A DNA stretch of 36,433 bases from a virus. Where the stretch lies: IMG/VR virus record IMGVR_UViG_3300027736_000112, positions 1 through 36,433 of that record; one strand, written 5' to 3'. The position numbers and the translations under genes are program-made. The notes under the pieces were generated by a model that saw nothing but the letters and a program-made list of their open reading frames with translations, did not search any database and was not told where the DNA came from. Shown piece after piece: positions 3,377 through 34,926 of the stretch (position 1 is its first letter; the number at the start of each line of letters is the position of its first letter).

Positions 3377-3867
3377 AAATTTCTATTCCAACAAGATACA
3401 AAACGCCTAGAGCAAAACTTGGTTATATTGGTGAAGTTTTAGTTAAGACTTACTTTGGTGGAGTTTTGTCGACATGGATGTATGATTCTGAAAAAGATCT
3501 TACTTTTTCAGATGGTAAACTTGGAGAAGCCAAAGCACAAAATAGAAACGTTAAACTAAATGTCTTTAGTATTAGAGCTCCAACTGAAACAACATATAAG
3601 AATCAGATTGTCAAATGCCAAGAAGTTGACAAGTTATATTTCGTAGAATATAATCTATCAGATAAATTTAGAATTTATGAATGCCACGATCGAAATGATG
3701 TGATTGAATATACTGCGTATATGGGTGAAGATCTCGGTAACGTAAATATGATTGGTTGGCCAATAGACAAAATGACAATGTTAATAGAAATTGAAGACGC
3801 TGAGGTGTGTGCTCAAATGCGTAGTTATTCCCAAGCAAAAACTATTATGAAAGATTTTCCAAAATGA
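3373..3867 (+). CDS. Hypothetical protein, possible PD-(D/E)XK-type nuclease
   Basis: A 164-residue protein. Near the N-terminus it has GYIGEVLVKTYFGG, followed by a DL and then GEAKAQ (about residues 52-57), an arrangement like the glutamate, aspartate and E-x-K of restriction-endonuclease-like folds. That assignment is inference from a short motif; the rest of the protein is not recognisable. It overlaps both neighbours by four bases, so it is probably translated with the modification genes that follow. Confidence 0.7.
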   Translation: MKISIPTRYKTPRAKLGYIGEVLVKTYFGGVLSTWMYDSEKDLTFSDGKLGEAKAQNRNVKLNVFSIRAPTETTYKNQIVKCQEVDKLYFVEYNLSDKFRIYECHDRNDVIEYTAYMGEDLGNVNMIGWPIDKMTMLIEIEDAEVCAQMRSYSQAKTIMKDFPK

Positions 3868-4256
3868 AAGAAGGTAAACAATTTACTCGTGAATCAGCAA
3901 ACATCCTGTTGGAAGCTGCTGCACTTCAAGAACGCAAAGGCCAGGATTATCAAAATCCTCTAAGCCGCGTACGTCAATCAGATCACTATCCACGAGGCGT
4001 TTATACAATCCTTGATACGATTAATGGTAAGATGCTTCGTATGTATTCCGTGTTGGAAACTATGGAAGCTGGTGGTAAAGTTAATTTTGAATCAGTTGAA
4101 GATTCTGCGATTGACATGATCAATTATGCCTCATTCCTTGTTGCATATATGCGTGGCGATATCGATGGTCAAGAACCTAACAAAGATATCTTCAATCGTC
4201 GTATCAGCAAAGAAACTCATCCAACAACTGATTTAACTCCTTCAAAGTTTAAGTAA
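3864..4256 (+). CDS. DUF1599/Nmad1-like nucleotide-modification-associated protein
   Basis: A 130-residue helical protein. KGQDYQNP near residues 25-32, NGKMLRMYSV in the middle and EDSAIDMINYASFLVAY near 83-99 resemble the DUF1599 family (nucleotide modification associated domain 1). Members are found next to phage DNA-base modification enzymes, as here, directly upstream of a dCMP hydroxymethylase. The biochemical role of the family is not settled. Four-base overlaps with both neighbours indicate one operon. Confidence 0.65.
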   Translation: MKEGKQFTRESANILLEAAALQERKGQDYQNPLSRVRQSDHYPRGVYTILDTINGKMLRMYSVLETMEAGGKVNFESVEDSAIDMINYASFLVAYMRGDIDGQEPNKDIFNRRISKETHPTTDLTPSKFK

Positions 4257-4987
4257 TGATGAATACCGTACACGAAATTCGCCAACAGTTTGCACGACTA
4301 TATCGTGATCAAAAGTTTGTAACCGATAAGTCAGGCGTTAAGACTCTTGAAATTATGTGTGCAAACTTCTGGGCTAACTCACCTCTAATCTTTGGTGCTG
4401 TTAACGAAGATTATGTTAAACGTGAACTTGACTGGTATCTTAGCGAATCATTGAATGTTAATGACATTCCTGGATCTACTCCACAGATTTGGAAACAAGT
4501 TGCAGATATAGACGGCTTCATTAATTCGAACTATGGTTGGTGTGTATACTCTGATGAAAATAATAATCAATTCGCTCATGTTGTAACTGAACTTGAAGAT
4601 CGTCCAGATTCACGCCGTGCTATTATGATTTACACTCGTCCTACTATGTGGGGTGATCATAATAAGAATGGTCGTTCAGATTTTATGTGTACTAATACAG
4701 TACAATATATGATTCGTGAAAACAAAGTTAATGCTATTGTGAATATGCGTAGTAATGATGCTTGGGCTGGTTATCGTAATGATTATGCTTGGCAGCAATA
4801 TGTACTAGAAGAAGTGGTGCAAGAACTTCACTATCGTGGAAAAAATTATAATCGTGGTGAGATTTATTGGAATGCAGGATCACTTCACATTTATGAACGG
4901 CAGTTCTATCTAATAGATCACTTTATTAAGACTGGTGCTTTAACAATTTCTAAAGAAGAGTATGACGCAAAGTACAATTTGGAATGA
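4256..4987 (+). CDS. 42: Deoxycytidylate 5-hydroxymethyltransferase, T4 gp42-like
   Basis: A 243-residue thymidylate-synthase-fold enzyme expected to convert dCMP to 5-hydroxymethyl-dCMP with methylene-tetrahydrofolate. The catalytic cysteine is C145 in DFMCTNTVQY. The pyrimidine-recognition segment RSNDAWAGYRNDYAW has D176 where thymidylate synthases have asparagine; this Asn-to-Asp change marks dCMP specificity. Both residues sit three positions before their T4 gp42 counterparts (C148 and D179), so spacing is conserved. With the deaminase and glucosyltransferase downstream it predicts modified cytosine in the phage DNA. A second ATG at 4259 is an equal start candidate. Confidence 0.92.
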   Translation: MMNTVHEIRQQFARLYRDQKFVTDKSGVKTLEIMCANFWANSPLIFGAVNEDYVKRELDWYLSESLNVNDIPGSTPQIWKQVADIDGFINSNYGWCVYSDENNNQFAHVVTELEDRPDSRRAIMIYTRPTMWGDHNKNGRSDFMCTNTVQYMIRENKVNAIVNMRSNDAWAGYRNDYAWQQYVLEEVVQELHYRGKNYNRGEIYWNAGSLHIYERQFYLIDHFIKTGALTISKEEYDAKYNLE

Positions 4988-5414
4988 TAGGTATTTAGCT
5001 TTAGCAAAGCAAGTTTCTACTTGGAGTAAAGATCCAAGTAGAAAGATTGGTGCAGTTGCAGTAGGATCTAAGGGTCAGATTTTATCACAAGGATACAATG
5101 GTTTCCCTCGAGGAATTCTTGATAGTGCTGATCGTTATAATGATCGTACTACAAAATATAAGTTAGTAGTTCATGCTGAAATGAACGTTATCTATAATGC
5201 TACATTCAATGGTGTATCATTAGATGGCGCATCGTTGTATGTCTATGGTCTTCCAGTATGTTCTGAGTGTGCTAAAGGTATTATCCAAGTCGGTATCAAA
5301 AAAGTTTTCATATATACAGATGATGCAGTACCAGCAATTTGGACAGAAGCATATGACTTAACATGCGATATGTTTAGTGAAGCTGGAATACAGTGTGAAT
5401 GGATACAAACATGA
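4962..5414 (+). CDS. cd: Deoxycytidylate deaminase
   Basis: A 150-residue zinc-dependent deaminase expected to convert dCMP to dUMP for thymidylate synthesis. The zinc site is clear: H71-A-E73 in VVHAEMN, and C100-x-x-C103 in LPVCSECA. It starts inside the 3' end of the hydroxymethylase gene (26-base overlap) after AAGAAGAG. In T4-like phages this enzyme diverts dCMP away from incorporation and feeds dTMP synthesis, here presumably through ThyX at 20283. Confidence 0.92.
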   Translation: MTQSTIWNDRYLALAKQVSTWSKDPSRKIGAVAVGSKGQILSQGYNGFPRGILDSADRYNDRTTKYKLVVHAEMNVIYNATFNGVSLDGASLYVYGLPVCSECAKGIIQVGIKKVFIYTDDAVPAIWTEAYDLTCDMFSEAGIQCEWIQT

Positions 5415-5429
5415 AGGAAGTAGATATAA

Positions 5430-6635
5430 ATGAAGATAGCAATTATTATGGGACGAGGCATTGAAGGATGTGGCGTTACCAAGTTTACAGTAGAACAAAC
5501 GAAATGGCTCGGCAAAAACGGGCATGATTTCGTTGTATACTCGTCAAAAGATAAATCATGGACACGTAAGAACGCCCACGATGTATCTAACGTCGTTCAA
5601 TTGAAGTTTGCTAAACCAGAAGAAACTAATAAGATGATTGAAGGCTGCAACAACGCCGATGTAGTTATCATTAATAGTCTTCCTTCAATTGGACATCCTG
5701 AAAAATGTATTAATGAATTTAAGCGAGCACTAAATGAAATTACTAAACCAATTGTCCTCATTCAACATGACCATTCTTCGTTGTCGATTAAGCGCAATGC
5801 TGCAATCGATGACGCCATTGGAAAAGCTAACATTCTTTTTGGCCATAGCGCTAGCAATGATTTCGCTAAGTACGTATCTAAAGTAACTGAAGGTGGTGGT
5901 CTTACGGGATTTTTTGATGAAGATAAGTCTAAGACTATCTTAAACTTTCAACCAGGACTTGACTTTGATTCAGTACGTGAAAAGTATTGGAAACCCATTG
6001 AAATACAAGATACGATTATGAATAAATGGATTGGCCGCACCACAAGTTGGAAAGGCTATGTTCAGATGTTTAAGTTTCATAATGAATACCTTCGTCCTGG
6101 TGGCTATATCACAACGTTTGAAGGTATTGAAAAGTCACCAGCATATCTTGGCTTTCGTGAACTATCAGAATTCAATGGAATGATTGATAGACATATTGCC
6201 TCAACTAATCTTGAAAACAATCAACCAGCATATGTCTTTGGCCCATTTATTAATGATGAGATGCTAGAGCGTATGTCTCGTGTTGGATTTGGTTATCAGC
6301 TTTCAGTACTAGATGAACGATACATTCAACGTTCTATTGAGTATACTCACTGTGAAGTTGTATGCACGGGCGTAGTTCCAGTCTTTCGTAAAACTTATGG
6401 TGAACGCTGTACTCACCGCAAGTTTGGAGATAAGCTAATTAATTGTAAAGACACGGGTACGATTTGGCTTGACGATAATGATATGCAGCCTGCTTTCGAT
6501 CTGCTAAATAAACTTGCCAGTGATAATGTTATGCGTAATGAATATCGTGAAATGGCATTCGAATTTTATAAACAACATCAAGACTCAAAGTATACCTTTG
6601 CAGAAATGATGAAACAGATTGAAGATAATCTATGA
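5430..6635 (+). CDS. agt: DNA alpha-glucosyltransferase, T4 Agt-like
   Basis: A 401-residue GT-B fold enzyme (T4 Agt has 400 residues) expected to move glucose from UDP-glucose to hydroxymethylcytosine in phage DNA. Similarity to T4 Agt runs end to end: EGCGVTKF near the N-terminus, QHDHSSLS, WIGRTTSWKGY in the middle, and MLERMSRVGFGYQLS and RSIEYTH in the C-terminal half. SD is AAGGAAG. It directly follows the hydroxymethylase and deaminase and overlaps the next gene by four bases. This is one of the firmest T4-type assignments in the window. Confidence 0.93.
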   Translation: MKIAIIMGRGIEGCGVTKFTVEQTKWLGKNGHDFVVYSSKDKSWTRKNAHDVSNVVQLKFAKPEETNKMIEGCNNADVVIINSLPSIGHPEKCINEFKRALNEITKPIVLIQHDHSSLSIKRNAAIDDAIGKANILFGHSASNDFAKYVSKVTEGGGLTGFFDEDKSKTILNFQPGLDFDSVREKYWKPIEIQDTIMNKWIGRTTSWKGYVQMFKFHNEYLRPGGYITTFEGIEKSPAYLGFRELSEFNGMIDRHIASTNLENNQPAYVFGPFINDEMLERMSRVGFGYQLSVLDERYIQRSIEYTHCEVVCTGVVPVFRKTYGERCTHRKFGDKLINCKDTGTIWLDDNDMQPAFDLLNKLASDNVMRNEYREMAFEFYKQHQDSKYTFAEMMKQIEDNL

Positions 6636-7822
6636 CATTTAAACATGCTTCTATTGTACCATTAATTGGAGGAGAAACTCTTGGGCAAATTAATGCATTT
6701 GGTACAAAACCTGATTACTTACTTTCGTATACCCCGTTTAGTAATAATGATTCGCACTTGGTTAATTACCTTGAAGACGTTCCTTACATCCTCTTGGACC
6801 AAGGGGGACACCATCCTCATTACGTTGATATCGTTAATGCTGTGTGTCCTTGTGCTGGCCTCAGTTCTTTATCCCCATCAGCAAACTCCGATGCTGCTGT
6901 TAATGATTGGTTGACAATTACTGCCAAGTACGTGTTGGAAGAAATGAAACCTAAAGTATTTTGGGGAGAGAATGCTCCACGATTTGCAGGTGAGATGGGT
7001 AAACCTATTGTTGTTAAGTTACATAAGCTTGCACAAGACAATGGTTATACGATGTCGATTTATAGAACTAAATCTTTGTTGCATGGACTTTCGCAAGTTC
7101 GTGAAAGAAGTTTTTACTTCTTTTGGAAAGGCGATAAGGTTCCAGTGTTTAAATATTTCGATGACTATAGAGTTAGCATTGAAGATCAAATTAATCTTGC
7201 TAAGCCTGATTCTACACAGCAAGAAGTAACGAATAAGAAGATTCCAAGTAAGGATGATCCATATTATCGTTATGTTCTTGAAGTTATGCATGGAGGCATT
7301 TCACACGCTGAATTCCAAAAGACTTTAACTAAGTCTGCAGATGCAATGCATTATATTGAAGAGAATGGCCACAACTATCGTATGGTAAAGTCTTTCTTTG
7401 AAAAAGAAGGCTATACTAAGTTTGCTGCAAAAATGGATGCTATGCAAGATAAACTTGATGCAGGCGGAAATATTATGAGACGTGCTTCATACATACCTAA
7501 AGACTATATTGGAGCTTTCGTAGGACATCTTCCAGTGTCTATGACTCATCATACTGAAGATAGATACCTAACATATCGTGAGTGTATGACTATTATGGGT
7601 TTACCTCAAGACTTTGAACTACTAAATCCAGCTAGAAATTTAAATCACGTATGTCAAAATGTACCAGTGCATACTGCTACAGATATGGCATTTGAAATTA
7701 AAGCTGTACTCGAGGGAAAACGAGATATGATGAATGGTAGTCTTATATATCAGTTTAATCCTCAAAAGACTTTTGAAATTCGAGACTATGAACCATTAAG
7801 TAGCTTAGAATCTTTCCTATAA
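6632..7822 (+). CDS. C5-cytosine DNA methyltransferase homolog
   Basis: A 396-residue protein with the ordered motifs of C5-cytosine methyltransferases. There is a weak motif I near the N-terminus and motif IV VCPCAGLS with the catalytic P73-C74. Motif VI is GENAP (E113-N114) and motif VIII is GLSQVRERSF. Motif IX is YRECMTIMGLPQDF, and the motif X-like segment is QNVPVHTATDM near 348-358. The catalytic cysteine is intact, so activity is plausible. It is coupled to agt, which is odd: cytosine C5 should already be hydroxymethylated and glucosylated. It might act on host DNA, on newly made unmodified DNA, or have changed chemistry. A terminator follows. Confidence 0.88.
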   Translation: MTFKHASIVPLIGGETLGQINAFGTKPDYLLSYTPFSNNDSHLVNYLEDVPYILLDQGGHHPHYVDIVNAVCPCAGLSSLSPSANSDAAVNDWLTITAKYVLEEMKPKVFWGENAPRFAGEMGKPIVVKLHKLAQDNGYTMSIYRTKSLLHGLSQVRERSFYFFWKGDKVPVFKYFDDYRVSIEDQINLAKPDSTQQEVTNKKIPSKDDPYYRYVLEVMHGGISHAEFQKTLTKSADAMHYIEENGHNYRMVKSFFEKEGYTKFAAKMDAMQDKLDAGGNIMRRASYIPKDYIGAFVGHLPVSMTHHTEDRYLTYRECMTIMGLPQDFELLNPARNLNHVCQNVPVHTATDMAFEIKAVLEGKRDMMNGSLIYQFNPQKTFEIRDYEPLSSLESFL

Positions 7823-7824
7823 TG

Positions 7825-7850
7825 ATCGCCCTTCGGGGCGATTTTAGTTT
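7825..7850 (+). terminator. Intrinsic terminator after the modification operon
   Basis: A perfect 7-bp stem ATCGCCC/GGGCGAT (7825-7831 and 7836-7842) with a UUCG tetraloop, followed by TTTTAGTTT. It separates the replication/modification block from the late block. Confidence 0.92.
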
Positions 7851-7858
7851 TATAAATA
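7851..7858 (+). promoter_or_regulatory. T4-type late promoter TATAAATA
   Basis: An exact match to the T4 late promoter -10 consensus, recognised in T4 by gp55 with the gp45 clamp. It starts one base after the terminator and 35 bases before the first late gene. No -35 is expected. The factors themselves are not in this window. Confidence 0.85.
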
Positions 7859-7885
7859 GTTCTATTACCTATATTTTAGAACTAG

Positions 7886-9031
7886 ATGGCAACTATCACA
7901 TTAGCTAAGAAACAGCTTACTCCAAACCAATTTGGACTTGGCATGTCGCCTGAAGATTCTGCTTCTCTTTTTAGAAAAGTTACAGCAGGTTTAAAAGCTA
8001 TGCATACTTCTAAGAAGCTTTCTACTGGCGTATTTAATGTATGCACAGAAATTTTAGCACATTCTCAAAAAGGCAAAAAGAATTTTGATGTAGACTTCTC
8101 GTCTTGGGTTACTCCACAGGAAGTAGGTATTATCGTATCTGACTTTGGTGAAGCATCTGGCGCGCTATATATGCTTAAGCATTCCGGTACAAAATTTGTT
8201 AAAGTTAAATTCCCAACACTAGCAAATGAAAAGCTAGTTGATTACTATCTTATAGATGGAGAAGGTATTGAATACCCATTCTCTGCTAAAGCAGGTGCTG
8301 GAGGTAAACCATCTATCACTGCTGTTACTCCTATTATAAGTAAGATGAAAGGTCTTAAGGGTAAGAGTAAATTAGCAGCAGAAGTTATATTGGCTATTGG
8401 TATTGAAGAAAAGACTGCAACTGGTAAGAGCACTGGCACAGACTTATTTAAAGGCCCATTGCTTGCAGCAGAAATTTTAAGTAAAGATATTCCTGCTTAT
8501 TCAGCTTTAATAAAAGTTCTTCAAGATAAAAAATTAAAGACAGGATATTCTGGCGGAACGCCTACCTCAGAGCATCTTGATGCCGCTATGGCAAATGCTG
8601 GTATGTATCCATCATGCGTAGAAACTTTCTTTAAGCCTTTTATGGAAGCAGCAAAATCAAAAGGTTTTGAACTTAAAGACGAAACATCTGTAAAGAGAGC
8701 AGTTAATCTTTCACCTTATGGACTACCCGGTGGTAAACCGCACCGTGATAAAAGATGGGGATTATTACATTATCCTCTTACAGCCAATCTTATAAGTTGG
8801 CTAAATAATACAGACAATGGCGCAACAGATTTATTATCAAAAGCAGCAAAGACTTTAACAGTGACTCAGATTTACTTAGATGTTTCACCAGCTAAGAATC
8901 CAAAGACATGTGTATACACATTTAAAGAATTTTCTGATGCTCAATTCCAATTTGGATCTCCATCAAGTACACCTAACCCAATTGGAAATAGAATTGGATT
9001 AACAATGATAAAATCTCCTGCTAAAAAATAA
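7886..9031 (+). CDS. Late protein of unknown function, probably virion-associated
   Basis: A 381-residue protein, first gene after the TATAAATA promoter. I recognise no domain. It is lysine-rich, with a GAGGKP loop near residue 137 and GLPGGKPHRDKRWG near 277; neither is a known active site. There is no signal peptide or membrane segment. It heads the operon of capsid-targeted candidates but lacks their N-terminal peptide. No clear Shine-Dalgarno is seen; the ATG at 7886 follows AGAACTAG. Confidence 0.75.
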   Translation: MATITLAKKQLTPNQFGLGMSPEDSASLFRKVTAGLKAMHTSKKLSTGVFNVCTEILAHSQKGKKNFDVDFSSWVTPQEVGIIVSDFGEASGALYMLKHSGTKFVKVKFPTLANEKLVDYYLIDGEGIEYPFSAKAGAGGKPSITAVTPIISKMKGLKGKSKLAAEVILAIGIEEKTATGKSTGTDLFKGPLLAAEILSKDIPAYSALIKVLQDKKLKTGYSGGTPTSEHLDAAMANAGMYPSCVETFFKPFMEAAKSKGFELKDETSVKRAVNLSPYGLPGGKPHRDKRWGLLHYPLTANLISWLNNTDNGATDLLSKAAKTLTVTQIYLDVSPAKNPKTCVYTFKEFSDAQFQFGSPSSTPNPIGNRIGLTMIKSPAKK

Positions 9032-9039
9032 GGACTAGA

Positions 9040-10263
9040 ATGTTACAATTTAAAAATTTTATAAAAGAAGAAGCAGAAGCAGAATCTAAACAGCTTAAGC
9101 ATATTACTCATCCAGAAGATCGTCCATTGATGCATGGACATAGTGGATTTGAGCATGCTCATGCTGCACTTATGCAAGCTCATTCGCACATGAAGTCTGG
9201 CACTAAGTCTAGTAATCTTACTATGAAGTACGATGGCGCTCCTTCTATTGTATTTGGACATCATCCAAAGACTGGAAAATTCTTTGTTGCAACTAAGTCT
9301 GCATTTAATAAGGATCCAAAGATTAATCATACGGAAGAGGACATTGATAGAAATCATGGTCATGCTCCAGGTCTTGCAAGTAAATTAAAGACAGCATTGA
9401 AACATCTTCCAAAAGTTGCTCCAAAGAAGGGAGTATTCCAAGGTGATTTAATGCATACGCAAGAAGACCATCGTCTTCATGAAGAACTATTAGTTGAACA
9501 GAAAAAAGTTTCTTTCACGCCAAACACTATTACATATACTGCTCACGGCGATGAAGCAAAAAGGATTGCTAGATCAAAAGTAGGTGTAGTTGTCCATCAA
9601 GAATATCATGGATCTGATGTTAGTAGCATGAAGGTTAGTCCTCATCCAAATCTTAAATCATTTAAAGATCATCCTGATGTTCATATGCATGGCGCAGAGC
9701 ATGATACTAGTAAGGTAACTCATTCTGATCAGAATGAAGCAGAGTTCCATAAGCACATGGCAGCTGCTAAAGAAATCCACGACACACATGGACATGCGAT
9801 GTATAACGCAGTACATCCAAAGCACTCTGGTGATGGTGGTCATCTTGCAACTTATATCAATAAAACAGTTCGTCATGATGAAGTCCCAAACGTAAAAGGG
9901 TTTCAGCAACACGTTGCAGATCATCATGCTAAACAGGCAGAGAAAGTAAAGACTGAAAAATCTAAGTCAGAGAAAGAGGCCGAAGGTGCTTCTCAAGTTG
10001 CTCATATTGAAAAGAATAAGAATCACTATAGCAATCTATTAGCTCAACACCATCACCTTGCTCAAGCTAAGAATGCATTAGTGCGTTCGTTAGAAACACA
10101 CGAAGGCGGGTATGATCACCACATTGCTGGAAAGAAATCAAAGCCAGAAGGTTTCGTTGTTAATACTAAACATGAAGGTAAAGAAGAACCTAGCAAATTA
10201 GTCAACCGTGCTGAGTTTGCAAAGGCTAACTTATTAAAAACTAAGAAATTTGGAGCAGAATAA
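9040..10263 (+). CDS. Ligase-like covalent nucleotidyltransferase with capsid-targeting-like N-terminus
   Basis: A 407-residue histidine- and lysine-rich protein. Residues 1-11 (MLQFKNFIKEE) resemble the T4 capsid-targeting peptide MKTYQEFIAE, ending at a gp21-type site (I-x-E). The body has ordered motifs of DNA/RNA ligases: motif I MKYDG with K63 as candidate nucleotidyl-lysine; TKSAF near 85-89; motif III-like GVFQGDL at 131-137; motif IIIa-like VGVVVHQEY near 181-189; motif IV EGFVV at 370-374; and motif V-like SKLVNR with K386. A histidine-rich insert fills 200-300. It may belong to a family listed as DUF6267, which I cannot verify. Late expression plus the leader suggests packaging in the head. 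The assignment rests on motif order. Confidence 0.7.
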   Translation: MLQFKNFIKEEAEAESKQLKHITHPEDRPLMHGHSGFEHAHAALMQAHSHMKSGTKSSNLTMKYDGAPSIVFGHHPKTGKFFVATKSAFNKDPKINHTEEDIDRNHGHAPGLASKLKTALKHLPKVAPKKGVFQGDLMHTQEDHRLHEELLVEQKKVSFTPNTITYTAHGDEAKRIARSKVGVVVHQEYHGSDVSSMKVSPHPNLKSFKDHPDVHMHGAEHDTSKVTHSDQNEAEFHKHMAAAKEIHDTHGHAMYNAVHPKHSGDGGHLATYINKTVRHDEVPNVKGFQQHVADHHAKQAEKVKTEKSKSEKEAEGASQVAHIEKNKNHYSNLLAQHHHLAQAKNALVRSLETHEGGYDHHIAGKKSKPEGFVVNTKHEGKEEPSKLVNRAEFAKANLLKTKKFGAE

Positions 10264-10871
10264 TGATAGATTTTTTATCGTTCCTTAAAGAAGCTACTGG
10301 CAATAAGCACGGTGTGCTCGCTGTTGGCCGTATGAATCCTCCAACGACAGGACATATGCAAGTCATTAACAAAGTGCATACTCTTGCTCAAAAACATAAT
10401 GCAGAACATAAAGTAGTTGTTACTCATAGCCAAGATGCCAATAAGAATCCTCTAAGTGCAAGTCAAAAGGTTAAACATTTGAAGCGTTATAGCGGAGAGA
10501 CTAATGTAGTTGCAGGTTCTAAAGAGAAGCCAAACATTCTATCTCATGCTTCGGATATGCATAAATCTGGAGTTACTCATCTTCATGTAGTAGCAGGTTC
10601 AGATAGAGTTGAAGCAACTAAAAAATTGCTAAATGATTATAATGGTAAAGAAGCTGCTCACGGCCACTATAACTTTAAGAAGATTACAGTACATTCTTCC
10701 GGTAAAAGAGATGCTGATGCTGAAGGCACATCTGGTATGTCAGGTACTAAAATGAGAGATCATGCTAAGAGCAACAATTTTAAAGAATTCCGTAAAGGAG
10801 TTCCGTCACATGTTTCAGATGCACATGCACATGAATTAATGCACGACGTACAACAAGGACAACTAAAATGA
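10263..10871 (+). CDS. HxGH-type nucleotidylyltransferase with capsid-targeting-like N-terminus
   Basis: A 202-residue protein. After the leader MIDFLSFLKEA comes GRMNPPTTGHMQV, the T/HxGH signature (T28-T-G-H31) of nucleotidylyltransferases such as NMN adenylyltransferase and cytidylyltransferases. AGSDRVE follows near 111-117, and GMSGTKMR near 158-165 matches the second signature (ISSTxxR type). Active-site residues look intact. The substrate cannot be told from sequence. The start overlaps the previous stop (TAATG). The leader ends in L-K-E, a plausible prohead-protease site. A degenerate relative is at 11611. Confidence 0.82.
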   Translation: MIDFLSFLKEATGNKHGVLAVGRMNPPTTGHMQVINKVHTLAQKHNAEHKVVVTHSQDANKNPLSASQKVKHLKRYSGETNVVAGSKEKPNILSHASDMHKSGVTHLHVVAGSDRVEATKKLLNDYNGKEAAHGHYNFKKITVHSSGKRDADAEGTSGMSGTKMRDHAKSNNFKEFRKGVPSHVSDAHAHELMHDVQQGQLK

Positions 10872-11416
10872 TATCATTTAAAGATTTCATAGATGAAGGT
10901 AAACGCGGCCTATGGGATAATATCCATGCTAAGCGTAAAAGAATTAAAGCAGGTTCTGGCGAGAAGATGCGTAAGCCGGGAAGCAAAGGTGCTCCTACTG
11001 ATGCAGACTTTAAAGCAGCAAACGAAGAAGTAGAATCTCAGTTTGATTTAATTGAAGAAGTTATTGAAGAGCTTGCTCTTGCTAAAGGACTTGATTCTGA
11101 ATTTGTTTGGGAAACATTAGAGCTTGTTACTGATGAAGAATTGCTAGAATATGCTATTGATAAAAAAGGTCACAAGTCTTCCGAAGGTGGATTGACACAA
11201 AAAGGTGTTGATGCTTACAATGCTAAGACAGGCGGTAACCTACAGACAGCAGTTACTACTAAACCTTCAAAATTAAAGCCAGGAAGTAAAGCTGCTAATC
11301 GCCGTAAGTCATTCTGTGCTCGTATGGGTGGAATGAAGAAGCGTTTAACTTCTGCTAAGACTGCTCGTGATCCAGATTCTAGAATTAATAAAGCTCTTAG
11401 AAAATGGAATTGCTAA
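10868..11416 (+). CDS. Late DUF6321-like protein with capsid-targeting-like N-terminus
   Basis: A 182-residue basic protein. It begins MISFKDFIDEGKRG, like the leaders of its neighbours, with an I-x-E end. An acidic helical stretch (about 50-100) joins to a C-terminal domain: GGLTQKGVDAYNAKTGGNLQ, then KSFCARMGGMKKRL and a final LRKWNC. I recognise this conserved phage domain (DUF6321-like) only as a family of unknown function. The spaced cysteines (FCARM and terminal C) are conserved-looking. Four-base overlap with the previous gene and a one-base overlap with the next. Confidence 0.75.
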   Translation: MISFKDFIDEGKRGLWDNIHAKRKRIKAGSGEKMRKPGSKGAPTDADFKAANEEVESQFDLIEEVIEELALAKGLDSEFVWETLELVTDEELLEYAIDKKGHKSSEGGLTQKGVDAYNAKTGGNLQTAVTTKPSKLKPGSKAANRRKSFCARMGGMKKRLTSAKTARDPDSRINKALRKWNC

Positions 11417-11580
11417 TGTTAAAGTTTAAAGATTATATTAAAGAAGAAAATAATGCAGGTTACGAGGGAACTGATAAGTTAACTCTTCATCGTAAGAAGA
11501 TAACACCTGGAGAGAAGCCAAAAACTCCAGATATGTTACCAGATTATTGTGAATGTGAAAATATACAAAAGAATAAATAA
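11416..11580 (+). CDS. 54-residue late protein with capsid-targeting-like N-terminus
   Basis: ATG at 11416 overlaps the preceding TAA (TAATG). The product starts MLKFKDYIKEENNAG, closely matching the leaders of the genes at 9040 and 10868 and ending in I-K-E. The remaining residues are basic, then CEC near the C-terminus. If the leader is removed, a peptide of about 44 residues would remain, in the size range of T4 internal peptides. No recognised domain. Confidence 0.7.
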   Translation: MLKFKDYIKEENNAGYEGTDKLTLHRKKITPGEKPKTPDMLPDYCECENIQKNK

Positions 11581-11610
11581 GATATAACGTTTACTTATCG
11601 ATGGAATAAC

Positions 11611-12936
11611 ATGAAAAAATATAGACAGTTAGTTACTCAACTGCCATCTAAAAAAGTTGTCTTAGGATTTAATGAGTTTCAGTCTCCTTCGGCTGTTCAT
11701 GAAGTCTATATCAACTCTATCAAAAAGTTAGCTTTTTCTCAGAAAGCTGATCATGTCATATTTGCTTCTTGCACAGAAGACAAAAAGATTCCACTCCCAG
11801 TAGATCGTAAAGTATATTTTTTGGAAAGAATGTTTCCAAAGACGAACTTCCTTGCGTGTAATGAAGTTGTAAATGATATAACAACTATCACCAAAGTTCT
11901 TTTTGAAAAATATAAGCACGTTACAATAGTAACTTCTCAAAGCCAAGTGGCAATTTATGAGAAGTTACTCGAGAATTTAAATGTACAGATTATTGGAGTA
12001 CAAGATTTTACTCCAAATACTAAGATTGTAGAGAGTCTTAAGAAGGGCGATTTTGGTTCCTTTAAGAAGACTCTTCCATTTACTATAACAGAACTTGATA
12101 GCAAGCGTCTCATGAATGAGATGCGTTTGGCTATGGGCCTTAAAGTTCTTAAGGAACAAGTCAAGTTTGAAACCAATGAATTAAGAGAAAAGTATTTCGC
12201 TGGAGAAATATTCAACGTTGGTGAGATAGTAGAATCTGATGATACCGTATATGAAATCATTAAGCGTGGTTCAAATCATCTTTTACTTCAAGATGAAAAG
12301 GGAAATCGTGTAAGTAAGTTTCCTCAAGAGCTACAGTTAACCAACAAAGAATTTGTTTTAGAGGAATCAAATATGCCAACACCCGAGCCAAAAGTTGAAA
12401 AAGTTAATGAAGCACAGGGTTTAGAGGGTGCTATGGATGGAGCAGAAGATACTTTAGAATCAGATCTAAATGATAAGCAAATTGATGATATGGTTGGTGG
12501 AGTAACCGATGATCATGTCATCAACCATTGTTACGATGATGATGAATTATGTATTATCGATGATGAAACTGGTGAGCATATTCATGATTTACATGAAGAA
12601 GTAATTATGGAAGTTCTATCGCGTATGGAACGCATAAAAGCAAAAGTAAGATTTGCAAGATCAGAAAGTAAGCGCGAAAGAAAAACCCGCGTCGCTCTTA
12701 AAACTCATTCCAATGTAAAGACTATTAACAATAGAGCTCGTCGTTTAGCAATCCAAATGATGAAACAAAGAATTGCTAAACGTCCCCTTGATAAACTATC
12801 TGTATCAGATAAAGAAAGAATTGAAAGAATGATGGCAAAGCGTAAAGTCGTTATTAATCGACTTGCTATGAAACTTGTGCCTAGAGTTAGAAAAACCGAA
12901 AATGATCGCCTTTCGCATAAAAACTATACTAAATGA
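11611..12936 (+). CDS. Degenerate nucleotidylyltransferase-like protein fused to a basic C-terminal region
   Basis: A 441-residue protein. Residues 14-125 align with the nucleotidylyltransferase at 10263: IPLPVDRKVYFLERMFPKTN against NPLSASQKVKHLKRYSGETN, and KHVTIVTSQSQVAIYEKLL against THLHVVAGSDRVEATKKLL. The catalytic TTGH is replaced by SAVH (residues 27-30), the GSD by SQS, and the second signature is absent, so it is probably a pseudoenzyme. A small beta domain follows (FNVGEIVES to about 245), then an acidic linker (about 265-335) and a very basic C-terminus (about 335-441). The N-terminus MKKYRQLVTQ faintly recalls a capsid-targeting leader. A structural or DNA-binding role in the head is an inference. 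Confidence 0.72.
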   Translation: MKKYRQLVTQLPSKKVVLGFNEFQSPSAVHEVYINSIKKLAFSQKADHVIFASCTEDKKIPLPVDRKVYFLERMFPKTNFLACNEVVNDITTITKVLFEKYKHVTIVTSQSQVAIYEKLLENLNVQIIGVQDFTPNTKIVESLKKGDFGSFKKTLPFTITELDSKRLMNEMRLAMGLKVLKEQVKFETNELREKYFAGEIFNVGEIVESDDTVYEIIKRGSNHLLLQDEKGNRVSKFPQELQLTNKEFVLEESNMPTPEPKVEKVNEAQGLEGAMDGAEDTLESDLNDKQIDDMVGGVTDDHVINHCYDDDELCIIDDETGEHIHDLHEEVIMEVLSRMERIKAKVRFARSESKRERKTRVALKTHSNVKTINNRARRLAIQMMKQRIAKRPLDKLSVSDKERIERMMAKRKVVINRLAMKLVPRVRKTENDRLSHKNYTK

Positions 12937-12947
12937 AATAGACAAAT

Positions 12948-13394
12948 ATGAATGAATTAGAAGCATCGCTTAGGGTGTCATTGGCAAATACGTTTGTCAT
13001 GTACTTTAAGACACACGGATATCACTGGAATGTTGAAGGAATTCAATTCAGCCAGTACCACGAATTCTTTGGAGATCTATACGAAGACTTATATGGAGCT
13101 GTAGATCCTCTTGCAGAAAACTTGAGAAAACTCGGTGCTTATGCACCAAAGAGTTTATCTGAACTATTTGACGCAACTACTATTAGAGAAAACCAATCTA
13201 TAGTAGGAAACAATCTAAAAGATATGCTAAATAGTTTAGAAGCTGATAATAAGGAAGTTATTAATTCTTTGAATAAGACATTTGGATTAGCGAATAAGGC
13301 TAACAAACAAGGTCTTGCAAACTTTATTGCTGAAAGGATTGATACTCATGAAAAACACGCATGGATGTTAACGGCATCTCTTAAAGGAACATAA
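12948..13394 (+). CDS. Dps-like ferritin-family protein
   Basis: A 148-residue four-helix protein resembling Dps (DNA protection during starvation). H26-W-N matches the conserved HWN; H38 lies 12 residues later, and D53 and E57 match the ferroxidase acids with E. coli spacing. The position of the remaining aspartate (E. coli D67) is G42, with D43 next to it, so the iron site is altered. There is no long lysine-rich tail. It lies in the late operon between candidate internal head proteins and ends one base before the next ATG, so a virion or DNA-protection role is possible. Confidence 0.78.
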   Translation: MNELEASLRVSLANTFVMYFKTHGYHWNVEGIQFSQYHEFFGDLYEDLYGAVDPLAENLRKLGAYAPKSLSELFDATTIRENQSIVGNNLKDMLNSLEADNKEVINSLNKTFGLANKANKQGLANFIAERIDTHEKHAWMLTASLKGT

Positions 13395-14774
13395 ATGACA
13401 ACTATAAAAAAGATTCTTGAAGGTAGAAAAGAACTTTCTGATAAGCAGAAACTGCATATTGATAAGAACGATAATGGCGAAATAGATTCCCAAGATTTTA
13501 AAGCTATTCACGCTAAGAGAGATGATGTATACACATCTGATTATAAATTAGATAAGAATGGTCGCAAAACTAAAGCTCATAAAATTAGTTTTAAAACTGG
13601 TGAACATGAAGTTAAAGGAGAATCTTTTAAACCTATGGACGAACCAAAATATAGTTTATCTATTCAAGCTCGTCAAAAAGAAGCGGATAAAAATATGACT
13701 AACAAACAAAATAAAAAGCATGAAGATATTGCTAAAGGCATGAAAAAATCTTATAAAGGATTTGTTCAAGCTTATGGTAAAAATCGTGCTGGCATGGACG
13801 AAGAAGTTGAACAAATTGAAGAAGCAATTCATGCAGATGACTATACAGCAACTTCAGAAAAGTCGCAGTTTGGTGGTCACCGTCCACACGTAGTTAACAA
13901 AGAAACTGGCAAAACTATGCACTTATCTGCGGCGGCGTATAAGTCTCCAGAACATGCAAAAGCTCATGCTAAAGCATATTTAACTGGTTATGCAAAGATG
14001 GGAATGCACGCAGCAGATCGTGCATCTATTGATTACGCTAAAGCAAATAAAGAACATATGGTTAAGGAAGACATCAACATGAACGAAGAACTACATCCAG
14101 AAGCACACAAAGTACTAAAGCATATTAAACCTGAACACCATGCAAAGTATACACCAGATATGACTAAGAAGCACTATACTGGCACCTTTGCAGATCGTAA
14201 AGCAGTTTTAGACGCAGCAGAAAAAGCTGGTCACTTAAAAGAAGCTTCACCGTTTGATTGGAAAAATACTCCACGTCAAACTTCTGACAAGACCCAAACA
14301 TCTACTTTTCATGATGTAAAGAAAATTTCTACTGGCACCGTATACACTAAGCAGTTCGATAAAGACGGTACGTCAAAAGGTACTGGTGATGATGCTGCTA
14401 AGAAAGCTGAAGGCGCTGCAAAGCGTGGTAGAGGACGTCCAAAGAAGGATAAGTTTTCTGAAGCTGTAGAGTTCTTAATTAAGTTCGACGAAGAAACATT
14501 TGATTCTTTGATGGAAGAAGGATTTGATTCTTTCATGGAACAGTATGAGCAACTAGATGAACTAAGCAAAAAGACATTAGGTAATTATGCTAAGAAAGCA
14601 TCACGTGATTCTACGATTACTCGTAAAATAGGAGCTGATTTTGAAAATCAGGCAAAGAAAGCAAGAAGCCCTGGAATGAAAGCTGCCTCTACATCACTTG
14701 CTGATAAGTATAAAGCTAAATCTTGGAAGCGTCGTGATGGCGTCGACCAAGCAATCAACAAATTAACCAAATAA
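13395..14774 (+). CDS. Modular basic late protein with EF-hand-like loop and AT-hook
   Basis: A 459-residue, very lysine-rich protein without a single known fold. An EF-hand/dockerin-like loop is at 23-34 (DKNDNGEIDSQD). An AT-hook core RGRGRP lies within 343-353, implying minor-groove DNA binding. Short modules are separated by acidic linkers ending in hydrophobic-x-E, such as EQIEEA, GHLKEA and EQLDEL, which match the cleavage preference of T4 gp21 prohead protease. The last module (LSKKTLGNYAKKAS to the end) is a repeat type seen in T4-like virion proteins. I infer an internal head precursor cut into DNA-binding peptides; no enzyme activity is suggested. Confidence 0.72.
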   Translation: MTTIKKILEGRKELSDKQKLHIDKNDNGEIDSQDFKAIHAKRDDVYTSDYKLDKNGRKTKAHKISFKTGEHEVKGESFKPMDEPKYSLSIQARQKEADKNMTNKQNKKHEDIAKGMKKSYKGFVQAYGKNRAGMDEEVEQIEEAIHADDYTATSEKSQFGGHRPHVVNKETGKTMHLSAAAYKSPEHAKAHAKAYLTGYAKMGMHAADRASIDYAKANKEHMVKEDINMNEELHPEAHKVLKHIKPEHHAKYTPDMTKKHYTGTFADRKAVLDAAEKAGHLKEASPFDWKNTPRQTSDKTQTSTFHDVKKISTGTVYTKQFDKDGTSKGTGDDAAKKAEGAAKRGRGRPKKDKFSEAVEFLIKFDEETFDSLMEEGFDSFMEQYEQLDELSKKTLGNYAKKASRDSTITRKIGADFENQAKKARSPGMKAASTSLADKYKAKSWKRRDGVDQAINKLTK

Positions 14775-15752: not shown

Positions 15753-16282
15753 TGTCTAGAACTATCGATAATGTAATAGCATTTAAAATATTATACATGC
15801 TAGTTACGCCGTTTGACGCAACAGATGCGTTTAGACTTGGTATTATAGATGCCAATGGCACAGCTTTAAAGAAAATTAGAAATTTTACTACGTCTGAAGA
15901 AAGAGATGCTTATACATCTCTTCATCGTTTAGTATTTTCTCTTAAAAAACTAATTCAAAAAATTCCAGGCGGAAAAACCAAACTTGCTAGTTTAGTTGCT
16001 GCTTATTGGTTAGTGAAAGAATCTTATGTCAATGGAACTAAGATAACTGAAAACATATTGATGCAATCAATTGAATTAATCGAAAGCAAAAAAATTACTT
16101 TAGTCGAAGAACAATTGACTATCGAAAAATTTATTAGTTTACTTGAAGATAGCGCAATTGCTAATACTGCTGGTGCTGCAACTTCAACTGATCAAGCTGC
16201 TATTAAAAAGAATAAAGACGGTATACTTGGTGCTCCTAAGTATATGTTCAAACGCAAAAAGAAGAATTTGGAGATGAGTTGA
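15752..16282 (+). CDS. Conserved T4-like phage protein, unknown function
   Basis: A 176-residue protein. The pattern AFKILYMLVTPFDATDAFRLGIIDANG, RDAYTSLHRLVFSLKKLIQKIPGGK and AAYWLVKE (given here in separate parts) belongs to a family widespread in T4-like phages outside T4 itself, always near the gene upstream of it here. The C-terminus is basic. I start at the ATG at 15752, embedded in the preceding TGA; a TTG three bases earlier is less likely. Its role is unknown; late expression suggests morphogenesis. Confidence 0.72.
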   Translation: MSRTIDNVIAFKILYMLVTPFDATDAFRLGIIDANGTALKKIRNFTTSEERDAYTSLHRLVFSLKKLIQKIPGGKTKLASLVAAYWLVKESYVNGTKITENILMQSIELIESKKITLVEEQLTIEKFISLLEDSAIANTAGAATSTDQAAIKKNKDGILGAPKYMFKRKKKNLEMS

Positions 16283-17442
16283 TGTTAACATTTAAAGAAG
16301 CATTCGGCCGTCGTTATGACGCTTATACTCGTGATCAACATAATGCGACTGCAGGTATGGGTAAAAACCAATCAGCTGCTTACCGTGCTGATGGCGGAGC
16401 TAATGACGAAGGTTGGGACAACGAACCTCAGCATAAATCTGCAGATCATCCACATGCTGTTCACATTAACGGTAAGAAGTGGAAAACATTTGGATCTCAA
16501 TCGCATGCTTCTAACGTAGCTAAAAAGATTAAAGGTGCTACAGTTCATAAAGAAGAAGTTCAAATTGACGAAGCTGGCACGTCAGCAGCAATAAGAATGC
16601 AGAAAGCTTTAGAAAAGATTAAAGCTGATCGTGAGCGTAAAGAACGTTTAGCTGCACCTTATGTTCCAGTTAAATCTGTATTCAAACAAGAAAAGCCTAT
16701 GAAAGAAAGCAACGAGCACTACGAAGAAGCTGAAGAGCATTTATCAAAGGCAAACGATGCTGAAGCTAAAGGCAATATGAAATCATTCCATGCTCATATG
16801 GCAGATCACCACGATGCTATGTCAGAATGGCATGATTCTAAAGGTCGTTCTGCTTCAGCAGACAAACATGCTGATAAAGCTGAATATCATCACGAAAAGT
16901 CTTTAACTGTTAAAGAAGATGTTGATTTAAACGAAGCTGGAATTCCAAAGAATCATACTATTGAAGCTCACGGCATTCGTGGTATGAAATCCACCCCTTG
17001 GAGAAAGACTTTTAAAAATCATGAACATCTATCAGATTGGGCCGATAAAAATGATAGCGTTGAAGTGCATGCTACTCGTGATTTAGAACAAGCTAAGAAG
17101 GGTAACCTATCCCCAGCTATGAGAGAAGAAGCTAAGGATCCTGGCGAATATGACTATGAAGGTCAAATGGCCCGCACCCAGTTGCAAACTACATTACGCA
17201 ATTGTGAAGATTTAATTGGTATGATTAAAGACGATGATAATATGCCAGAATGGGTTCAATCTAAAATCACTTTAGCACAAGATTACATTACAACTGTTCG
17301 AGATTATCTACAATCAAAAGAAGAACTCGGAGAAGAATTAAGCGATCTTACTCGTAATGCTAAGCAAGAAAAAGATATTTCTACTGGCAAAAAGCCTATG
17401 CCAAAGCGTAAGCTATTAGGATTTAAACAACAGAGTTGTTAA
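16282..17442 (+). CDS. Modular late protein, candidate internal head precursor
   Basis: A 386-residue, histidine- and lysine-rich protein starting MLTFKEAFGRR, a shortened match to the leader peptides of the 9040-11416 genes. Two linkers, KEEVQIDEAG (about 93-102) and KEDVDLNEAG (about 213-222), share a common pattern and present I/L-x-E sites like those cut by T4 gp21. Between them is a helical histidine-rich module (EHYEEAEEHLSKANDAEAKG region). After them, residues about 280-340 hold a common phage virion module (MPEWVQSKITLAQDYITTVRDY, in parts). The last residues are basic. I infer a polyprotein-like internal head protein. Confidence 0.72.
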   Translation: MLTFKEAFGRRYDAYTRDQHNATAGMGKNQSAAYRADGGANDEGWDNEPQHKSADHPHAVHINGKKWKTFGSQSHASNVAKKIKGATVHKEEVQIDEAGTSAAIRMQKALEKIKADRERKERLAAPYVPVKSVFKQEKPMKESNEHYEEAEEHLSKANDAEAKGNMKSFHAHMADHHDAMSEWHDSKGRSASADKHADKAEYHHEKSLTVKEDVDLNEAGIPKNHTIEAHGIRGMKSTPWRKTFKNHEHLSDWADKNDSVEVHATRDLEQAKKGNLSPAMREEAKDPGEYDYEGQMARTQLQTTLRNCEDLIGMIKDDDNMPEWVQSKITLAQDYITTVRDYLQSKEELGEELSDLTRNAKQEKDISTGKKPMPKRKLLGFKQQSC

Positions 17443-32576: not shown

Positions 32577-32650
32577 TCCGGAATAGTGTAGCGGTAACAC
32601 TACAGACTTTGACTCTGTCATCCTAGGTTCGAACCCTAGTTCCGGTGCCA
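32577..32650 (+). tRNA. tRNA-Gln (UUG)
   Basis: A 74-base tRNA with encoded CCA. Anticodon stem ACAGA/TCTGT with loop CTTTGAC gives UUG. T arm is CTAGG/CCTAG with loop TTCGAAC. The first acceptor pair is U-U, which fits the weak first pair of glutamine tRNAs. Confidence 0.9.
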
Positions 32651-32747
32651 TATTGAAATGTATTACTTGCCTGACCGAAAAAGTCGTGGTAAACTACAAG
32701 AGACAGAGGGTTCGAATCCCTGGGACTGGTAGTATGTTTCAATATGG
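32648..32747 (+). ncRNA. tRNA-like sequence inside an inverted repeat
   Basis: CCATATTGAAA (32648-32658, including the CCA of tRNA-Gln) pairs perfectly with TTTCAATATGG (32737-32747). Between them are a tRNA-like T arm (GGG-TTCGAAT-CCC) and a possible acceptor CCTGACC/GGACTGG with two mismatches, but too few bases remain for both D and anticodon arms and no CCA is encoded. A decayed tRNA or another stable RNA. Confidence 0.45.
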
Positions 32748-32753
32748 TTTTTT

Positions 32754-32831
32754 CTGGGTATAATGTCAATCAGGTAGACGGCGAGGTTTGGAACTTCGAG
32801 GCTGCAGGTTCGAATCCTGCTACCCAGACCA
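32754..32831 (+). tRNA. tRNA-Pro (UGG)
   Basis: 78 bases with perfect acceptor CTGGGTA/TACCCAG, anticodon stem CGAGG/CTTCG, loop TTTGGAA (UGG), a TTCGAAT T loop and encoded CCA. C1-G72 is typical of proline tRNAs. Confidence 0.93.
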
Positions 32832-32838
32832 ATTTTAT

Positions 32839-32928
32839 GGAACGGTCCTATAATGGTATTAGAGCAGATTGCTAATCTGTCGCTCGGCGCAATCCGGGTT
32901 CTGAGTTCGAGTCTCAGTCGTTCCGCCA
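32839..32928 (+). tRNA. tRNA-Ser (GCU)
   Basis: 90 bases. Acceptor GGAACGG/TCGTTCC, anticodon loop TTGCTAA (GCU), long variable arm, T arm CTGAG/CTCAG, discriminator G, encoded CCA. Class II as expected for serine. Confidence 0.93.
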
Positions 32929-32934
32929 AGTTAT

Positions 32935-33020
32935 GGAAGTGTGGGTGAGTGGCTGAAACCGACAGACTGTAAATCTGTTCCCTAAAAAGCACGTTGGTTC
33001 GAATCCAACCGCTTCCACCA
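32935..33020 (+). tRNA. tRNA-Tyr (GUA)
   Basis: 86 bases. Acceptor GGAAGTG/CGCTTCC, anticodon stem ACAGA/TCTGT with loop CTGTAAA (GUA), long variable arm, T arm TTGG/CCAA, discriminator A, CCA. Confidence 0.92.
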
Positions 33021-33027
33021 ATTTATT

Positions 33028-33119
33028 GCCAGCGAGACTTGGAAGTCAGAGAGGTCTTATACACCTTTTAGCGCCAGATTAGCGTTCTTGAGAGGGTTCG
33101 ATTCCCTCCGCTGGTACCA
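33028..33119 (+). tRNA. Class II tRNA with apparent UAU anticodon
   Basis: 92 bases with acceptor GCCAGCG/CGCTGGT, perfect T arm GAGGG/CCCTC and CCA. The best anticodon stem is GAGGT/ACCTT with loop CTTATAC, giving UAU (reads AUA, isoleucine). Yet there is a long variable arm (AGCGC/GCGTT), as in leucine, serine and tyrosine tRNAs, and a very small D arm. Identity is uncertain. Confidence 0.6.
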
Positions 33120-33140
33120 ATCAATATGAAAGGAGGCAAT

Positions 33141-33731
33141 ATGCCAAGTGTATTTTTAGTTAGCGATACTCACTTTGGTCACACTGGCGTATGTCGCTTT
33201 ACGCTCAATGATGGTGTTACAAAATTAAGACCGTGGGATGATGCCGATGAGATGGATGAAGCTATGGTCAAAGCTTGGAACGAAAGAGTAAAACCTACTG
33301 ACAAAGTCTATCACTTAGGTGACGTTGTGATTAACCGTAAAGCAATGGGAATCATGCGTAGGTTGAACGGTGACAAAGTTTTGATTCGTGGTAATCATGA
33401 CATCTTTCGAGATGATGAATATCGTGAACATTTTCGCGAATTGCGTGCATATCACGTAATGAACGGTATGATCTTGAGTCATATTCCATTACACCCAGAA
33501 TCGTTAGGTCGTTTTGGCACTAACATTCACGGTCATTTACATTCTGGTAGAGTCATGAGACAACCAGAAGGTAAGTATGGAGTACCTATTGTTGATACGC
33601 GTTACCATTGTGTTTGCGTAGAACAGACTCCTGATTTTGCTCCAATCTTGTTTGAGGATGTGATTAAACGAATTGAAGCCGAAGGCGGAAGTGTTGGATT
33701 TAAAAACGGTAATCACAATAGAGCTGATTAA
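33141..33731 (+). CDS. Metallophosphoesterase (calcineurin-like)
   Basis: A 196-residue phosphoesterase. Metal-site motifs are in order: SDTHFGH (9-14), YHLGDVV, IRGNHD, LSHIPLH and NIHGHLHSG. ATG 33141 follows AAAGGAGG; an earlier ATG at 33126 is inside that ribosome site. Substrate unknown; phage relatives act on nucleotides or phosphoproteins. It lies between tRNA genes, and tRNA-Met starts two bases after its stop. Confidence 0.9.
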   Translation: MPSVFLVSDTHFGHTGVCRFTLNDGVTKLRPWDDADEMDEAMVKAWNERVKPTDKVYHLGDVVINRKAMGIMRRLNGDKVLIRGNHDIFRDDEYREHFRELRAYHVMNGMILSHIPLHPESLGRFGTNIHGHLHSGRVMRQPEGKYGVPIVDTRYHCVCVEQTPDFAPILFEDVIKRIEAEGGSVGFKNGNHNRAD

Positions 33732-33732
33732 T

Positions 33733-33807
33733 GGGCTGGTAGCTTAATGGTAAAGCAGTGAACTCATAATTCATTGAGTGGGAGTTCAATTCTCTCTCAG
33801 CCTACCA
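33733..33807 (+). tRNA. tRNA with CAU anticodon (elongator Met or Ile2)
   Basis: 75 bases. Acceptor GGGCTGG/TCAGCCT with G-U pairs, anticodon stem GTGAA/TTCAT, loop CTCATAA (CAU), T loop TTCAATT, CCA. It lacks the G-C run of initiator tRNA. Whether the C34 is lysidine-modified for isoleucine cannot be told. Confidence 0.88.
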
Positions 33808-33810
33808 ATA

Positions 33811-33828
33811 TATACTTGATGAAGTATA
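33811..33828 (+). other. Short hairpin between tRNA and HNH gene
   Basis: A perfect 7-bp stem TATACTT/AAGTATA with GATG loop, no T tract. Possibly an RNA-processing or stability element for the upstream tRNA; AAGGAAG for the HNH gene follows. Confidence 0.5.
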
Positions 33829-33842
33829 ACTAAGGAAGTATC

Positions 33843-34403
33843 ATGTCACAAATTTTAGCACTTGACGCATCAGGGTTACCGCGAAAGTGGATTACCTATG
33901 AAGATGCTATCACATACTATGCAAAGGAAGTAGTTGTTTGGTCACTTGGTGATATAGTAGCTACATTCCGCGGTGGTATTCAAAATAGTGGCGTAATGTC
34001 TGTGATTGAAACTCCTTCAATCATAGCTATTAAAGGTAAGGGCTTCAACATTGAAAAAGCAGGTAAAGTAGTTTTGTCTAACAAGACTTTGTTTGCTCGT
34101 GATCGTCATGTATGTGCATATTGTGGTGGGAAGTTTATACACAACCATCTATCACGAGATCATGTACTGCCAGTTTCACGTGGTGGTGAAAACACTTGGA
34201 TGAACTGTGTTACTTCTTGCATAAAGTGTAATACGTCTAAAGGAGCACGTACTCCAAAAGAATTCGGGCACGAAATCTTGTACGTTCCTTATGTTCCTAA
34301 CCACTATGAACATATGATCTTGCAAAATAGAAACATTCTTGCAGATCAAATGCACTACTTGCTTAGTGGAGTTCCTAAGCACTCAAGAGTTCTTTTGAAC
34401 TAA
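33843..34403 (+). CDS. HNH endonuclease
   Basis: A 186-residue protein. The HNH zinc-finger nuclease is at about 95-140: CAYCG, then SRDHVLPVSRGGENTWMNCV with the catalytic DH and N, then CIKCNTSKG. The N-terminal part may bind DNA. Such free-standing HNH genes in phage tRNA clusters usually behave as homing endonucleases. Strong ribosome site. Confidence 0.9.
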   Translation: MSQILALDASGLPRKWITYEDAITYYAKEVVVWSLGDIVATFRGGIQNSGVMSVIETPSIIAIKGKGFNIEKAGKVVLSNKTLFARDRHVCAYCGGKFIHNHLSRDHVLPVSRGGENTWMNCVTSCIKCNTSKGARTPKEFGHEILYVPYVPNHYEHMILQNRNILADQMHYLLSGVPKHSRVLLN

Positions 34404-34411
34404 AAAATTAT

Positions 34412-34487
34412 GTACGTGTGACCCGAAAGGCTAGGGACGAGATTGCAACCCTCGATTATGCAGGTTCGAGTCCTGTCGCGTACTCCA
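34412..34487 (+). tRNA. tRNA-Cys (GCA)
   Basis: 76 bases. Acceptor GTACGTG/CGCGTAC, anticodon loop TTGCAAC (GCA), T arm GCAGG/CCTGT, CCA. The discriminator U73 is a cysteine identity base. One A-C mismatch closes the anticodon loop. Confidence 0.88.
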
Positions 34488-34492
34488 AATGA

Positions 34493-34908: not shown

Positions 34909-34926
34909 AAATAGTTCACTTAACGG

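Follow-up and report, generated by a model that had tools for sequence, protein, structure and literature searches.

Why should four consecutive genes of a virus begin with nearly the same peptide? In the window analysed here, a 36,433-base IMG/VR virus record that is a fragment of an uncultivated T4-type phage genome, the starts MLQFKNFIKEE (9040), MIDFLSFLKEA (10263), MISFKDFIDEG (10868) and MLKFKDYIKEE (11416) lie exactly where a preliminary description had placed them. That description had likened the peptides to the capsid-targeting sequence (CTS) of T4 internal proteins. We consider it highly probable that the four N-terminal decapeptides are T4-type CTSs, and that the four proteins behind them are packed into the head, cut and ejected with the DNA.

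The leaders and their late operon

The features of the region are collected in Table 1. A motif scan of all window ORFs of at least 40 amino acids, on both strands, finds the four leaders and one internal GTG at 3700. Aligned to T4 IPIII (MKTYQEFIAE), the four are in the exact CTS register: positions 4 and 7 are aromatic, position 8 is I or L and position 10 is E. According to a review on the assembly of the T4 head (PMC9026906), targeting is determined mainly by CTS residues 4 and 7, and residues 8 and 10 determine processing, roles that it traces to the mutagenesis of Mullaney and Black (1996). The likeness to the T4 sequence thus extends to all four functionally tested positions. Gene 11416 has an ATG start at 11416, with a longer ORF reading from 11404. 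A fifth leader had been proposed at 16282 (MLTFKEAFG); this start has F4 but A7 and, lacking both the aromatic residue at 7 and E10, is ruled out as a CTS.

Table 1. Features of the leader-bearing region of the window (a slash in a sequence stands after the glutamate of the site).
Feature	Position	Strand	Remarks
T4-type late promoter core TATAAATA	7851..7858	+	28 bases 5' of ORF 7886
ORF 7886, first operon gene	7886..9031	+	381 aa; leaderless in the window phage
DUF6267 protein	9040..10263	+	407 aa; Pfam PF19782, E=8e-100
Leader 1, MLQFKNFIKE	9040..9069	+	predicted cut after E10
NMNAT-like nucleotidylyltransferase	10263..10871	+	202 aa; Pfam PF01467; PHROG cytidyltransferase
Leader 2, MIDFLSFLKE	10263..10292	+	motif scan
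DUF6321 protein	10868..11416	+	182 aa; Pfam PF19846, E=2e-19
Leader 3, MISFKDFIDE	10868..10897	+	motif scan
Small leader-bearing protein	11416..11580	+	54 aa
Leader 4, MLKFKDYIKE	11416..11445	+	motif scan
Second nucleotidyltransferase-like protein	11611..12936	+	PHROG cytidyltransferase
459-aa protein	13395..14774	+	[IL]xE separators EQIEE/A, EQLDE/LSKKTLGNYAKKA; possible polyprotein cargo
386-aa protein	16282..17442	+	separators EEVQIDE/AG, EDVDLNE/AG; start MLTFKEAFG, not a CTS

As a positive control, the leader regular expression was run on 49 kb of T4 and returned exactly IPII and IPIII. Among 3015 unique ORFs from related loci, a set chosen for DUF6267 and hence dominated by it, the motif occurs at the first ATG 223 times and later in the ORF 12 times, whereas each of seven position-scrambled decoys matches a first ATG at most once (0 or 1 match) in the same ORFs. 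Chance therefore cannot account for the leaders.

The leader genes belong to a tight forward operon (7886–11580) that runs from ORF 7886 through the DUF6267, nucleotidyltransferase (10263) and DUF6321 genes to the 54-residue ORF, with junctions of 8 bases or start/stop overlaps. A family search with ORF 7886 gave no match; the Melnitz-2 gene at the equivalent position has a leader (MQGFKTFLSEA). The genes had been called late, and the TATAAATA element 28 bases ahead of the operon's first gene bears this out. Of 91 relatives, 67 also have this element upstream, mostly 28–112 bp before DUF6267 or ~1.2–2 kb before it, the latter sites being where the preceding gene would start. The window has no excess of the element (2 observed, 4.4 expected); for TATAAATA it is position that counts, not number. 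There are no head genes in this 36-kb fragment. At its far end (32577–36394) 14 tRNA genes are arrayed, with HNH endonuclease-like and phosphoesterase-like ORFs between them.

Proteins behind the leaders

The DUF6267 protein has motifs in ligase order (KxDG, GVFQGD/GVYQGD, PEGFVV and KLVNR, assigned by eye), and K63-D65-G66, QGD134-136, PEG369-371 and K386/R390 are invariant in 54 sequences. A Foldseek search of the PDB with the DUF6267 model gave no match at E<=0.001; weak matches to ligases and capping enzymes (1xdn, 4xrp, 1p16, 3jsl, 5fpo and 8w8e) occur among the best 31. Alignment of profiles with T4 RNA ligase 2 (Rnl2) by hhalign was negative (probability 0.1 percent), and a sequence search of the PDB produced chance matches only. 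Of the earlier label ‘ligase-like’, the ordered and invariant motifs stand, but no significant fold or profile match goes with them, and we do not assign the protein as an RNA ligase on motif resemblance.

The nucleotidylyltransferase recognized at 10263 holds up better. Its motifs TxGH, GSDR and SxTxxR are intact and conserved, and the best PDB matches of its AF2 model (pLDDT 89.7) are NaMN/NMN adenylyltransferases (8aih, E=1.1e-5); against NCBIfam there are weak cyt_tran/NMNAT matches only. Its fold neighbours are thus NadD/NMNAT, whereas its family label is cytidyltransferase, and judged by modelled fold and motifs it is NMNAT-like. In S-PM2 and uncultured phages DUF6267 and a cytidyltransferase are fused in one chain (PHROG 455), whereas in the window the same two domains are on separate proteins, each with its own leader. 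The fusion suggests that DUF6267 and the nucleotidyltransferase probably act together.

The strict leader is present in 25 of the 44 DUF6321 orthologues with complete N-termini, and it is kept in three N-termini related to the 54-residue protein. The protein encoded just beyond the operon, at 11611, starts with MKKYRQLVTQ, a degenerate CTS-like sequence (Y4, L7, V8, Q10), and a relaxed form of the leader fits 40 of its 43 relatives. Its active site is degenerate (FNEFQSPSAVHE), and since the homologue in a relative, G001, reads FNPPTIGHE, the protein of the window is possibly inactive. Directly 3' of the leader genes, a ferritin-like protein of the Dps family is encoded at 12948–13394.

G001 (164.7 kb) encodes homologues of gp20, gp21, gp22 and gp23. 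Its gp23 has EALFE/AAPT where T4 has FLTE/AEIG, which places an LxE site at T4's cut, and [ILM]xE is frequent in its gp22 (15 observed, 5.9 expected). Similar sites recur in proteins near the leader genes. The 13395 protein has nine [ILM]xE (3.9 expected), and the more elaborate pattern E.[VI]x[IL]xE occurs three times in the 16282 ORF (0.03 expected). In relatives, e.g. L052 (G001) from 11615 onwards, the nucleotidyltransferase opens a ~1140-residue chain in which EEVQIDE, EEIELEE and EEVELDE separate small modules (six matches to E.[VI]x[IL]xE, 0.09 expected), and S-SCSM1_92, annotated as a virion protein, has four such matches (0.07 expected). We hypothesize from this pattern that the separators may be cut by the prohead protease.

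These sites raise the question whether the leader directs its bearers to the prohead core as scaffold or DNA-packing proteins and not as enzymes for delivery. DUF6321 and the neighbouring polyprotein-like genes, with their repeated [IL]xE sites, resemble the scaffold protein gp22 in this respect, and the T4 core proteins are indeed cut up in the head. However, neither the 10263 nucleotidyltransferase nor DUF6267 has an excess of [IL]xE, the active-site motifs of both are invariant, and a kinase and a SAM hydrolase carry the same leader (below). A scaffolding role for the cargo is in our judgement unlikely.

Leader-bearing enzymes in cyanophage virion proteomes

Orthologues of the 10263 enzyme appear in mass spectrometry of CsCl-purified virions in three published cyanophage studies, as gp154 of S-CREM2 (PMC10665884), ORF91 of S-SCSM1 (PMC9602691) and S-SZBM1_140 (PMC9146016). 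All three begin with the leader: MKNFSSFLTE/A in gp154, MKSFLQFLKE/A in ORF91 and, one residue shorter, MRFRQFIIE/A in S-SZBM1_140. A scan of the whole S-CREM2 genome finds a strict leader at only three annotated gene starts, those of gp6 (SAM hydrolase), gp14 (APH-like kinase) and gp154, and all three are in the list of 52 virion proteins (PMC10665884). Near matches in gp13 (MKDLHSFLTE), gp136 (MQTFSMFFSE) and gp12 (RFASFMAE near the start) are in the same list. One of two leader genes was detected in S-SCSM1 and one of three in S-SZBM1. The total of detected leader genes over the three genomes is 5/8, against 1.44 predicted by the detection rates (P=0.006). The undetected ones are three small genes of S-SCSM1 and S-SZBM1 (~105–165 aa).

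Two gene groups in these phages may be noted separately. L104 (S-CREM2), 3837–13331, encodes the SAM hydrolase and the APH-like kinase together with two small proteins and one annotated as ‘Cas9-like’; every one of them is virion-listed, two have strict capsid-targeting leaders and others near matches. L108 (S-SCSM1, record 44215) and L115 (S-SZBM1, record 122628) hold orthologues of ~105 aa (MKTFKQFMSESVNISGDFNGNLYVNS) with strict leaders, which lie inside the structural gene cluster and were undetected by mass spectrometry.

The authors of the S-CREM2 (PMC10665884) and S-SCSM1 (PMC9602691) studies themselves raise the possibility that the virion enzymes are carried-over contaminants. The enzymes might accordingly be abundant late proteins that co-purify, the leader being some other docking peptide, e.g. 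one that brings several enzymes into a complex during infection; such a complex is conceivable for the window, where the leader genes are all in one operon. In the linear S-CREM2 record, however, gp6 and gp14 are far from gp154 and on the opposite strand, yet all three were detected. Of the phages whose virion proteomes were examined, only S-SZBM1 is known from this analysis to have DUF6267; its copy is leaderless and was undetected, while the leader-bearing neighbour was detected. Since the leader also agrees with the T4 CTS at all four positions that have been tested, we regard co-purification or another docking function as very unlikely.

S-CRM01, whose kinase g130 starts with MISFDQFLSE, is reported second-hand to have kinases in its virions. 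The NMNAT of S-CBWM1 virions was considered and set aside: it starts without a leader, and since the phage is reported not to be T4-like, the case counts neither for nor against packaging.

Since the tagged enzyme is found in purified particles of related cyanophages, it is very probable that these phages inject preformed enzymes along with their DNA. For the window phage itself we infer packaging, cleavage after E10, ejection and the function of the cargo by analogy with T4. The DUF6267, NMNAT-like, DUF6321 and 54-residue proteins would be made late in infection from the late operon, and F4 and F/Y7 would dock them in the prohead core. A gp21-type prohead protease would then cut after [IL]xE10, so that the mature enzymes stay in the head. 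Ejection with the DNA has been shown for the T4 internal proteins, and the window cargo, carried in the virion, would leave it in the same way. As soon as they have entered the host, the NMNAT-like enzyme and DUF6267 may act together on nucleic-acid ends or on the metabolism of NAD or nucleotides.

T4 CTS cargo is an already known kind of system; the enzyme cargo is the new part. The window proteins share with T4 IPI, IPII, IPIII and Alt, which are processed by gp21, an N-terminal 10-residue leader in the same 4/7/8/10 register, and further have in common with the T4 internal proteins an [IL]xE cut site (predicted here), late expression and unrelated cargo after the leader. T4 Alt has a shorter propeptide that is cut at ITE-6. 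The T4 internal proteins are small, variable and of anti-restriction or unknown function, whereas the window cargo comprises enzymes (NMNAT-like and DUF6267) conserved over a whole phage group. The virion NMNAT/cytidylyltransferases of S-CREM2, S-SCSM1 and S-SZBM1 are orthologous to the 10263 enzyme and have its leader; the accessible parts of these three publications describe neither a targeting sequence nor a packaged DUF6267 partner, and two of them leave contamination open.

The preliminary description had stated that no such packaged pair was known. This does not apply to the nucleotidyltransferase, which had been found in cyanophage virions but not explained by targeting, whereas the predicted packaging of DUF6267 is new. 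Its packaging interpretation as a whole keeps the CTS reading, the conservation of the leader and the virion-detected leader-bearing orthologues of 10263; it loses the fifth leader and whatever in ‘ligase-like’ went beyond motif resemblance.

Conservation and wider occurrence of the leader

Among DUF6267 relatives the leader is kept in 78/78 complete N-termini, in a search of which one pattern contained the leader. The search was therefore redone with domain-only patterns, and 63 of 72 DUF6267 N-termini have the leader in exact register; several of the other nine are shifted or near (e.g. MILGFRDFLTE). Conservation among relatives, which the preliminary description had named as a possible point of failure, is thus retained in a search free of the leader. 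In 54 aligned DUF6267 sequences, down to 47% identity, E10 is present in 54, [LI]8 in 54 and F4 in 52, and residues 12–18 are variable and gapped. Across 91 distinct codings there are synonymous codon changes at leader positions 4, 7, 8 and 10. In the AlphaFold (AF2) model of DUF6267 the domain has a mean pLDDT of 89 and residues 1–17 lie below 50, and the leader is accordingly a disordered segment in the model. Conservation, the variable residues 12–18, the synonymous codons and the low-pLDDT N-terminus together indicate that the leader is a module of its own, maintained by selection on the protein sequence. That the similar starts are functionless recent copies of one gene start, as recombination can spread first residues between adjacent genes, is extremely improbable, because the four starts in the window use different codons, the key positions show synonymous changes in the 91 codings and the leader persists down to 47% domain identity.

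The leader comes and goes among orthologues. P-RSM6 and S-SZBM1 have it on the nucleotidyltransferase and not on DUF6267, DLP6 and C48C1 have it on DUF6267, HTVC008M has it on neither of the two, and the RaK2 nucleotidyltransferase is leaderless. It also recurs on unrelated protein families: of 233 unique tagged proteins, 93 are not in the DUF6267 cluster, and once about a dozen internal Met matches are set aside, ~80 belong to other families.

A wider proposal, which we put forward tentatively, is that aquatic T4-superfamily phages in general use the CTS as a cargo code. It would load single enzymes and also polyproteins, in which a nucleotidyltransferase precedes strings of small modules separated by EEVQIDE/EEVELDE sites, and the prohead protease would cut these inside the head into many small proteins. 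If this is true, each virion brings a whole set of enzymes and peptides into a new host cell. In the literature searched, which covered few subscription journals, the papers found on this subject were mainly on T4 and giant phages; none describes a CTS in cyanophages or marine phages, nor was any paper found that links the virion-listed SAM hydrolase, kinase and nucleotidyltransferase to a CTS. Within this literature, a CTS as the reason for the enzyme cargo, DUF6267 as a partner and an extension of the rule to aquatic phages appear to be unreported. T4 head targeting, studied mainly in coliphages, would be extended to Kyanoviridae and related aquatic phages. Cyanophage virion enzymes have hitherto been left as possible contaminants, and a short N-terminal code predictive of packing would make this directly testable. 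It would also allow the NMNAT-like enzyme, SAM hydrolase, kinases and DUF6267 to be recognized as injected cargo from the genomes of uncultivated phages, and the phages concerned are very abundant.

Further leader-bearing families occur at L144 7185, L192 8501, L079 5337 and L130 3833. Searches of the further tagged families against Pfam and PHROGs gave nothing firm. Two of them (260–414 and 321–342 aa), though lacking a firm family match, look nuclease-like by eye, and one tagged family is an apparent HAD-type protein (FDVDETLF).
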